This document shows positions 55,912 through 63,972 of a stretch of DNA of 64,000 nt, piece after piece; positions within the stretch are counted from its first letter, which is position 1; the number at the start of each line of letters is the position of its first letter. Source of the DNA: Alkalidesulfovibrio alkalitolerans DSM 16529 (lineage in GTDB: Bacteria > Desulfobacterota > Desulfovibrionia > Desulfovibrionales > Desulfovibrionaceae); contig NZ_ATHI01000005.1 in assembly GCF_000422245.1 (NCBI RefSeq), positions 124,001-188,000 of the forward strand. The letters are read 5' to 3'. A program made the translations under genes and the position numbers. Under the pieces are notes generated by a model. That model was not told the DNA's origin. It was given only the letters and a program-made list of their open reading frames with translations, and searched no databases.

Positions 55912-55941
55912 TTGACAATCTCGCGTCGGACTACCTATAGC
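55912..55941 (+). promoter_or_regulatory. Promoter of the EF-G-like gene
   Basis: A perfect TTGACA (55912-55917) and TATAGC (55936-55941) are 18 bp apart, leaving a leader of about 90 nt before the ATG at 56037. It is back to back with the BON promoter. Confidence 0.55.
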
Positions 55942-56036
55942 TTGAAGCCTTGGAAACTCACGGAGTTCATACTCCAAAGCGGGAGACGATGGCAAAGGGT
56001 TCTGACGGACGTTCCAACTGACATCAGGAGTGCTGC

Positions 56037-61832: not shown

Positions 61833-62438
61833 ATGCACGCCATCTACCGCGCCACCATGGATATCGTTCTGGCCTCGGCCTCGCCCAGGCGTCTCGAACT
61901 GCTGCAAGGCCTCGGGATCAGCTTTCGCGTCGTGCCCAGCACCTGCCCCGAGCCGCCGCCGGAGGGTCATGAAAAGCCCGAGGCGTATGCAATGCGCATG
62001 GCCCTGCAAAAGGCCCTGGAGGTCGCGGCGCTCCACCCCGGAAGCCTGGTCATCGGCGCGGACACCGTGGTCGCCGTGGGCGGCCAGATGCTGGGAAAGC
62101 CCGTGGACGAGGCCGACGCGCGGCGCATGCTGGGTCTGCTCGCGGGCCGCGAGCACCTGGTGGCCACGGGCTGCGCGCTTGTGCCGCCGGATGGCCCGGC
62201 GCGCACCTTCGCGGTCGGCACCCGCGTGACCATGATCGATCCGGGGCCTGCGGCCCTGGCTGCCTACGCGGCCACGGGCGAGCCCCTGGACAAGGCCGGA
62301 GCCTATGCCATCCAGGGCCAGGGCGCGTTCCTGGTGCGCAGCGTGGAAGGGTCCTACACCAACGTCGTGGGCCTGCCCCTGGCCGAGGTGCTTGAGACAG
62401 CAGTGTCTTTGGGGAGCGTGAGACCAGTGAAAGATTGA
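61833..62438 (+). CDS. maf: Maf family nucleotide pyrophosphatase with a replaced C-terminus
   Basis: Maf proteins hydrolyse non-canonical nucleoside triphosphates. The 201-aa protein has the family signature LASASPRRLELLQGLG, EKPEAYAMRMALQKA, GADTVVAVGGQMLGKP and GSYTNVVGLPLAEV. After that block the tail ETAVSLGSVRPVKD is not Maf-like; the expected tail reappears 1.1 kb downstream at 63514-63561. An alternative start at 61857 (MDIVLASASP) is the usual family start. The catalytic core is intact, so the enzyme is probably active. Confidence 0.9.
   Translation: MHAIYRATMDIVLASASPRRLELLQGLGISFRVVPSTCPEPPPEGHEKPEAYAMRMALQKALEVAALHPGSLVIGADTVVAVGGQMLGKPVDEADARRMLGLLAGREHLVATGCALVPPDGPARTFAVGTRVTMIDPGPAALAAYAATGEPLDKAGAYAIQGQGAFLVRSVEGSYTNVVGLPLAEVLETAVSLGSVRPVKD
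62367..62390 (+). repeat. Left direct repeat of the maf insert (24 bp)
   Basis: The 24 bp beginning GTGGGCCTGCCCCTGG are identical to 63490-63513. Allowing two mismatches the match extends to 34 bp (62363-62396 and 63486-63519). It lies in the codons for VGLPLAEV of maf and looks like an attachment-site copy. Confidence 0.85.
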
Positions 62439-62449
62439 CCCAAGCTGAC

Positions 62450-62469
62450 ATATTTTATATATAAAATAT
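62450..62469 (+). repeat. Perfect 20-bp AT palindrome at the left edge of the insert
   Basis: ATATTTTATATATAAAATAT is fully self-complementary, starts 11 bp after the present maf stop and lies about 75 bp before the Abi gene. It could be a promoter element, an operator or part of a recombination site. Confidence 0.6.
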
Positions 62470-62543
62470 AAATTTGCTTTTTGTTTCCAAGCTATCCAGC
62501 CATATTTGATCCCTACCATCACCCAATTACGAGGTAGTGATTA

Positions 62544-63416
62544 ATGACCAAAATCAATCCCAATGTAATCAGATTGTTAGCAAAGACAATTACTGGGGAC
62601 AATCAAAAAGCACCCTACCTGAAGGGGCCTGATCTTGTAGACTTTTTTAACCAATTTGGGTTTGATGATCAATATAGCTGGAATGGAGGATTTCCAACAC
62701 GCTGGGTATATGCAGAAGAAAAGATCAAAAGCTTGATTGAAATTGGAAAATTTCGCGATTTTCTAATTGAATTAGTCAATCCAGCTAGATTCATAGAGAG
62801 CGAAATCGACTTCACATCAACAATCGAATATATAAACCATCTACTATCTCACAATGATATCAAATTATCATATACCGGAAGAAAAGTGATTATTGATGGC
62901 TTGAAATCACATAGTATAGACTTCAAAAAGAAAATGAATGCATCTGACAAAGATTTTGATTCATTCATTGATGACCAAATAGTAAAATGCGATCGAAAAA
63001 TTGAAAATGGCGACTATGATGGAGCAATTACAAACGCACGGACATTACTTGAAAGTGTACTCCATGAACTTGAAAGTAATTTATCCGCTGGCAACAACAA
63101 AAAAGATGGCGATCTGATCAAAATGTTCAAAAGAGTTAAAACTCTGATGAACATGAATGAAAAAGAATATCCTGGAAACAATGCCGTTCTCCAACTTATA
63201 AGTGGGATAACCTCCATTGTTAATGGGATTGCTACACTAAGTAACGAGATGGGTGATCGGCATGCCAGAGGGAAAAAACCACTAAAACATCATGCGATGC
63301 TGTGCGTAAACTCATCAAAAACAATTTGTGAGTTTATGACATCAAGCTTCATGCACCAAGCAAAGAACGGAAATATTATTTGCCATACTAAACAAGGAGG
63401 AAGCGAACGAGAATAA
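62544..63416 (+). CDS. Abortive-infection family protein (Abi C-terminal domain)
   Basis: The 290-aa protein is coded in AT-rich DNA quite unlike its neighbours. The C-terminal half (about 150-275) matches the Abi_C pattern: NGDYDGAITNARTLLESVL, a middle DLIKMFKRVKTLMNM, then SGITSIVNGIATLSNEMGDRH and ARGKKPLKHHAMLCVN. The N-terminal half is a helical region I do not recognise. No nuclease motif is obvious. GAGGTAG precedes the ATG. Such proteins are linked to phage defence, usually by host shutdown; that role is inferred from the family. Confidence 0.8.
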   Translation: MTKINPNVIRLLAKTITGDNQKAPYLKGPDLVDFFNQFGFDDQYSWNGGFPTRWVYAEEKIKSLIEIGKFRDFLIELVNPARFIESEIDFTSTIEYINHLLSHNDIKLSYTGRKVIIDGLKSHSIDFKKKMNASDKDFDSFIDDQIVKCDRKIENGDYDGAITNARTLLESVLHELESNLSAGNNKKDGDLIKMFKRVKTLMNMNEKEYPGNNAVLQLISGITSIVNGIATLSNEMGDRHARGKKPLKHHAMLCVNSSKTICEFMTSSFMHQAKNGNIICHTKQGGSERE

Positions 63417-63486
63417 CTCCTCATCTGTTTTGCAGAAAGAAGAATAAGCCAGGACACATAGAAAGCATGCACGTATTTCCTCAAGC

Positions 63487-63561
63487 GTGGTGGGCCTGCC
63501 CCTGGCCGAGGTGATTGAGGCGCTTTTGGGTTCCGGCGCGCTTGAATCTGCTCGGGGTTGA
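63487..63561 (+). pseudogene. Stranded original 3' end of maf
   Basis: From the right repeat the maf frame reads VVGLPLAEVIEALLGSGALE and ends SARG with a TGA at 63559. This is a normal Maf C-terminus, without its upstream part. It shows where the ancestral gene ended before the insertion. Confidence 0.75.
63490..63513 (+). repeat. Right direct repeat of the maf insert (24 bp)
   Basis: Identical to 62367-62390. The AT-rich tract ends just before it and GC-rich DNA resumes at once. Confidence 0.85.
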
Positions 63562-63749
63562 GGAACGCCTCGTGGCAGGCGGTGTTTCCCGAGGGGATCG
63601 CGTCCCCGAAGGGCAGCCCGAGGACGTGCCGCGAGGGCGCGCCTGACCAGCCAAGCCCCTCGCGGGCGCTGAATCCGAACCGCCCGAACTACCCCAGATC
63701 GCCAACTAGGACGACCCCGGGAGGCCCCTCCCCGCTTCCCCGCCAGCCC

Positions 63750-63818
63750 GCCGGATCGCGTGCCAGCCGCCTTCCCGGCCCCCTGCCGGATCGCCTGCCA
63801 GCCGCCTCCCGGCTCCCT
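63750..63818 (+). repeat. Tandem duplication of a 34-35 bp unit
   Basis: Two adjacent units begin GCCGGATCGC and continue TGCCAGCCGCCT, CCCGG and CCCT, differing at a few positions. Confidence 0.7.
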
Positions 63819-63828
63819 GCCATACCGC

Positions 63829-63867
63829 CTGCCGAACGTCTGCCGAACGTCTGCCGAACGTCTGCCG
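63829..63867 (+). repeat. Three perfect tandem copies of an 11-bp unit
   Basis: CTGCCGAACGT occurs three times in a row (63829-63861), followed by a partial CTGCCG. The period of 11 bp is not a multiple of three, arguing against coding. Confidence 0.85.
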
Positions 63868-63972
63868 CCCCCTTCCCGGCCCCCTGCCGCACGCCCGCCG
63901 AGTTGGACGGGAGAACACGCCGCGGCTTCGGAAAACATCCCCCTGGCCCCCGAGTCAGCGGCGGGCCCCCTT

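Follow-up and report, generated by a model that had tools for sequence, protein, structure and literature searches.

The window analysed here is a stretch of 64,000 nucleotides from Alkalidesulfovibrio alkalitolerans DSM 16529 (NZ_ATHI01000005.1, positions 124,001-188,000 of the forward strand; coordinates are counted within the window), and contains a maf gene followed by an inserted segment between two direct repeats (Table 1). The Maf protein matches the Pfam family (6.9e-56) and scores above the cut-off of TIGR00172. The direct repeat is 34 nt long with 2 mismatches (94% identity, spacing 1123) and encloses 1.1 kb, in which the GC content is only 0.31-0.42 (200-nt windows), as against about 0.7 in maf. 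The initial annotation had described an exact repeat of 24 bp at 62367-62390 and 63490-63513, which is indeed present, albeit only as the exact part of the longer, imperfect repeat. This exact part is found at just two places in the genome when up to 3 mismatches are allowed, and a reversed-pattern control gave 0 matches, which rules out a chance repeat. An assembly artefact is unlikely because arrays of such inserts occur also in genomes assembled into 1-3 contigs (G152, G163, G250). The maf gene remains open through the left repeat into a new tail, while the displaced tail at the right repeat reads from the core in the maf codon register, so that the previously proposed exchange of tails holds. 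Short GC-rich direct repeats, including 11-nt tandem units, are located downstream of the displaced tail (63732-63902).

Table 1. Features of the maf locus in the window.
Feature	Position	Strand	Basis
maf (Maf family nucleotide pyrophosphatase) with replacement tail	61833..62438	+	Pfam, TIGR00172
Left direct-repeat copy, attL-like; shared core CGTSGTSGG within the NVVG codons	62363..62396	+	Repeat search, junction alignment
Inserted segment (inferred)	62364..63485	+	Repeat and GC content; exact ends uncertain inside the repeat
Replacement Maf tail LETAVSLGSVRPVKD and stop	62391..62438	+	Translation; start inferred
AbiJ/Abi_C-type gene, 290 aa; sole cargo gene recognised	62544..63416	+	Pfam, PADLOC
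Displaced former maf 3' end SVVGLPLAEVIEALLGSGALESARG-stop	63484..63561	+	Translation
Right direct-repeat copy, attR-like	63486..63519	+	Repeat search

The AT-rich interior had been described as encoding a single Abi_C protein, and this was borne out by matches of its product to Abi_C in Pfam (6.2e-15) and to AbiJ in PADLOC (3.6e-29, profile positions 14-275 of 281). Judged by these profiles, the gene is near full length, with the C-terminal Abi_C part that is characteristic of AbiJ proteins. We take the C-terminal part of AbiJ to be a HEPN domain. The window protein differs in that LSNEMGDRH stands in the place of the Rx4-6H motif, with S instead of R, and a homologue in G026 that is 54% identical also has S at this position. 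The motif is given here as in the HEPN source (PMC3710099). The cargo of the window insert probably acts as an abortive-infection effector.

Second maf tails were also found in relatives. A maf search in 59 genomes gave second, partial matches in G037 and G029 (a double match in G021 represents two parts of one gene rather than a second copy), and a neighbourhood scan revealed a second maf tail 0.96 kb further on in G001, which belongs to the same genus as the window genome. A maf-tail profile was then applied to 247 genomes from the family of the window genome, and 60 genomes with at least two of the matches listed were searched again; this set was deliberately enriched and hand-selected, with the window genome included and some eligible genomes left out. 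Within this set, 15 of the 60 genomes, counting that of the window, have a further maf tail at most 12 kb downstream on the same contig and strand (E<=0.1), mostly within 2.5 kb of maf, so that inserts at the same maf position, which the initial annotation had suggested searching for, do occur elsewhere and with varied cargo. Several genomes contain further tails in tandem by the same profile (four in G163, three each in G152 and G250, two each in G221 and G209). A DNA junction model, trained on 17 junctions that it also reports, including that of the window, and in part applied with per-locus thresholds, added a second further tail in G144 as well as weaker single-tail cases. The junctions in G002, G023, G140, G238 and G240 and the later ones in G163 are weak or decayed, and 12 of 76 loci were dropped from one step since a strict regular expression found no tail in them. 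Among 19 hand-picked control loci with a single maf tail (including two short ones of 4.3 and 5.5 kb), matches resembling a right end were obtained in G114 (8e-5) and G018 (0.54). The second-tail pattern is real yet not universal, and by its target, junction position and layout the window insert would be one case of a recurrent pattern at the maf 3' end.

The insertion process was followed by comparisons with empty sites, which covered 15 non-self locus pairs and one self-pair. Two genomes of one genus, the occupied G030 and the empty G085, are 97.3% identical upstream up to core+10, and downstream they are 91.4% identical across 1.5 kb from core+3. These limits place the insertion within the NVVG codons, at CGTSGTSGG, and we regard this pair as decisive for precise insertion. 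As further support, the match between G116 and G009 begins at core+2 and is followed by collinear DNA downstream. The matches of G145 to G191 (69 nt) and to G031 (27 nt) also begin at core+2 and cover the tail only, while that between G238 and G201 spans 30 nt from core+8. For G004/G070 and G179/G162 the downstream alignment stops short of the core, and no downstream match was found in the remaining eight locus pairs. An empty maf allele with the window's own tail (EALLGSGALESARG), as had been envisaged for close relatives, was not found in the two genomes of the same genus that were seen, both of which carry inserts (G001 and, weakly, G002, in which the second tail has an E-value of 0.19 with the maf-tail profile and 0.004 with the DNA profile). 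The empty-site allele in another genus and the same layout in relatives nevertheless support the earlier proposal of an integration at a gene end that supplies a replacement terminus, and of a very small cassette or a remnant.

We also considered the possibility that homologous or homology-facilitated recombination imported a foreign maf 3' end along with the neighbouring Abi gene, with no site-specific recombinase involved. Long duplicated stretches of maf that lack the usual right end, as in G037, G029 and at the third tail of G209, are compatible with such a process, and so are two traits of the window insert itself, where the repeat extends about 25 nt beyond the core and the outer ends are missed by the end models described below. 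However, the displaced tail of the window starts at core+2 when the right repeat is aligned to the left copy, matching the start at core+2 or +3 in G030, G116 and G145, and the core is common to the junctions of many genomes while the flanks differ. On balance, we find this explanation rather improbable for the window insert.

Insertion with long target duplication is a known type of insertion, and the events in G037 and G029 resemble it, whereas the window and most other junctions have a short fixed core instead. In G037 (L034:1857-14344), about 12 kb lie between two near-identical maf ends of about 315 bp, which represents a different kind of maf insertion; by eye, this segment contains restriction-modification-like, SNF2-like and Fic-like genes. 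In G029 (L035), maf is followed by a gene that by eye is deaminase-like, then by a degenerate maf tail and further on by AT-rich genes.

The ends of the inserts share some features across genomes. At the left ends, the substitute Maf tail is often followed by similar non-coding DNA with CCCCAC-type repeats, and at many right ends GTTAC is located 23 bp before the core. A 60-bp model of the right end (26 junctions), from whose training the window junction was withheld, missed the right end of the window insert. When the 26 junctions were themselves held out, this model gave the true site the top rank in 12 cases, 7 of them at E<0.05, and placed it just behind a sister junction in 3; in the other 11 the site ranked lower or was absent. 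The held-out model of the left end (34 ends) recovered the left end of the window insert (4.2e-11) with the conserved core and maf codons included, but did not find it when begun at core+27. The assignment of the window insert thus rests on target, junction position and layout rather than on end sequence, and the insert would presumably be of the same lineage as those in the relatives. A left-end-like match at 55925-55982 in the window (E 0.037), which by eye adjoins an elongation-factor-like gene, was judged to be due to chance. We also dropped a unit of 182 bp, which has no ORF of 55 aa and is 78% identical between G250 and G004, as a candidate for a minimal cassette that had moved. It consists of a left end plus a right end and says little about movement, because its ends (for instance, 84-89% identical to the left end of G030 and 67-75% to the right end of the maf insert in G004) are equally like those of other inserts.

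The cargo of the inserts is diverse. They contain 50 ORFs of at least 90 aa, 31 of which are oriented in the same way as maf; 23 were run against Pfam and 11 against PADLOC. Besides AbiJ, the products include GFA, acetyltransferase, SnoaL-like, ParDE, DUF2867, solute-binding, GGDEF and DUF3800 proteins, a hexapeptide transferase and a MarR protein with a flavodoxin-like one, in addition to proteins with no assigned family. An AMP-binding enzyme and a dihaem cytochrome were both found in weak junctions. The comparison of 10 further proteins with PADLOC yielded one strong match, that of a RelA/SpoT-like protein to PDC-S33 (1.9e-52), and one protein with weak matches, a MarR-type regulator. Most of the cargo that could be named in other inserts is not defensive, and the original emphasis on defence was thus too narrow. 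Stretches of 425-794 bp can be aligned between inserts of different genera, and three cross-genus pairs of cargo proteins are 78.7, 70.9 and 87.4% identical at the amino acid level, as compared to 61.4, 46.5 and 49.2% for the Maf proteins of their hosts, a difference that slower evolution of the cargo could also explain.

As the initial annotation had stated, the window insert contains no tyrosine recombinase detectable by a Phage_integrase search. The window genome has 7 matches to this family, none of them near maf, and the nearest on the maf contig is about 42 kb away; in the 16 genomes searched, the 40 kb to either side of maf on the same contig gave no such match. In one metagenome-assembled genome, G025 (CAILNX010000062.1), a 352-aa integrase (Phage_integrase, 3.9e-19) ends at the junction, with a stop codon that starts 45 bp before the right core and last codons that are themselves CCCAC-type repeats. 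The maf gene of G025 sits on another contig, which ends soon after maf, and the two contigs are presumed to join; if so, the element would be at least 12 kb. Its visible part encodes mostly proteins with no assigned family, besides a PLD-like one and another, small recombinase.

Relics of this integrase were clear at 4 of the 27 junctions other than that of G025 (G001, G004, G033 and G250), and none was seen in the window. The copy in G033 is a broken C-terminal part with stops just before the core and is 57% identical to the integrase of G025, while in G001, G004, G250 and, less clearly, G221 no more than the final codons remain (PTQ.PT..), and their stop lies 44-46 bp ahead of the core. A test of stop-codon positions gave a modest signal, with 6 of 28 at -46 as compared to a mean of 1.35 elsewhere. 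In the G004 array, a separate integrase fragment (60% identical) lies 100 bp past the first core. On the minus strand of contig 31 (L140), G004 has an array with maf-tail-like cores away from maf that includes an integrase fragment and is flanked, by eye, by prophage tail-like and Dnd-like genes. Homologues of the G025 integrase are present at 1e-40 in 67 of the 247 genomes, though not in that of the window. Among the best six of the matches in 348 genomes of the class, for which the junctions were examined, only that of G025 lies at a maf-type core, and it is the one intact integrase seen at such a core. The integrase of G034 (L161) is 49% identical to that of G025 and is followed by no maf-type core within 400 nt, and this integrase group may therefore use other targets. 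Searches with the G025 integrase gave two relatives in viral contigs (25 and 28% identity), and a further two in genome_contigs (24 and 28%) besides the record of G025 itself.

How do these inserts compare with known systems? Among CIMEs (cis-mobilizable elements), one example is that at fda in Streptococcus thermophilus. Like CIMEs, the maf units appear to have retained att sites and lost integration genes, and they occur in tandem accretions at the end of one target gene. They differ in being mostly 0.2-2.5 kb in size, often with one gene or none, in having maf as the target, and in that the integrase of a few of them is cut down to its last codons. For the window insert, core and target are as at the G025 integrase junction while the outer ends are not recognised by the held-out models, genes for integration and transfer are lacking and the only recognised gene is of the AbiJ type; the integrase relics that point to an origin by deletion are in the four relatives. 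Both the definition of CIMEs and the model of tandem accretion used here follow PMC5704250. Genomic islands and prophages at the 3' ends of protein genes are described in another source as having a tyrosine integrase, a short core and a reconstituted target gene (PMC12884075), from which the window insert differs in having a single gene and no integrase. Our literature search found no report of maf as an integration target. We presume that the target gene known as 'Maff2-related' is a gene other than maf. That name occurs in the CIME source (PMC5704250).

The interpretation we favor, and consider likely, is that the window insert is an integrase-less, att-flanked, CIME-like mini-element at maf that entered by site-specific recombination and arose as a deletion derivative. 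An element of 1.1 kb carrying the AbiJ gene would have entered maf at the core within the NVVG codons, with a crossover chemistry that we infer to be of the tyrosine-integrase type. The left end of the element would supply a substitute maf 3' end, because of which maf stays open, and the old 3' end of the host would have been shifted to the far side of the insert, on its right. Most likely, the element derives by deletion from an integrative element that targets maf, like the one in G025, and it would now be stranded unless an integrase supplied in trans can move it.

As a special case of this interpretation, the element could have arrived with its own integrase, lost it and been immobile since. 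The lack of an integrase in the insert, of Phage_integrase matches near maf and of a G025-type homologue in the window genome fits with such a stranded remnant, as does the decay in place that is seen in G033. However, related cargo in different genera suggests repeated arrivals, so that integrase loss would have to be repeated as well. We hold this version to be a serious but tentative possibility.

Integrons offer another comparison. Their cassette arrays are rows of small units with a common recombination site and varied cargo, and the maf inserts are similar in all of these respects. A cassette moved by IntI through a folded attC would account for the small tandem units, often with a single gene, for the general nature of the cargo and for the 31 of 50 ORFs in the maf direction. 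Yet the nine junction strands analysed showed no unusual, attC-like folding (z -1.84 to 1.42), the first site lies inside a housekeeping gene, the gene at the G025 junction encodes an integrase of the phage type (by its Phage_integrase match rather than an IntI-specific model), and no Phage_integrase match lies close to maf in the 16 genomes searched. Membership in the integrons is not supported, and we consider it highly improbable. An unrelated system that merely resembles integrons has more to recommend it, although we still think it unlikely: the maf 3' end would then be the entry port of a gene-capture system of this family, in which rare helpers of the G025 type move mini-cassettes in trans that have no integrase of their own and bear att ends of the phage type, building tandem arrays in which each arrival re-seals maf.

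Under the favored interpretation of a CIME-like deletion derivative, movement in trans is possible, and the inserts may retain some mobility today. Our findings point to the maf 3' end as an integration hotspot in a protein gene, where small inserts, often with a single gene and in one case with a defence-like gene, have built up in rows with hardly any recombinase to be seen. If the inserts move in trans, they would represent a minimal way of shuffling single genes without integrons. If they do not, they would record, like fossils, successive stages in the loss of an integrase: an intact gene, a broken copy and finally the last codons. In either case, these ideas can be tested, as core, ends and a candidate enzyme are sufficiently well defined.
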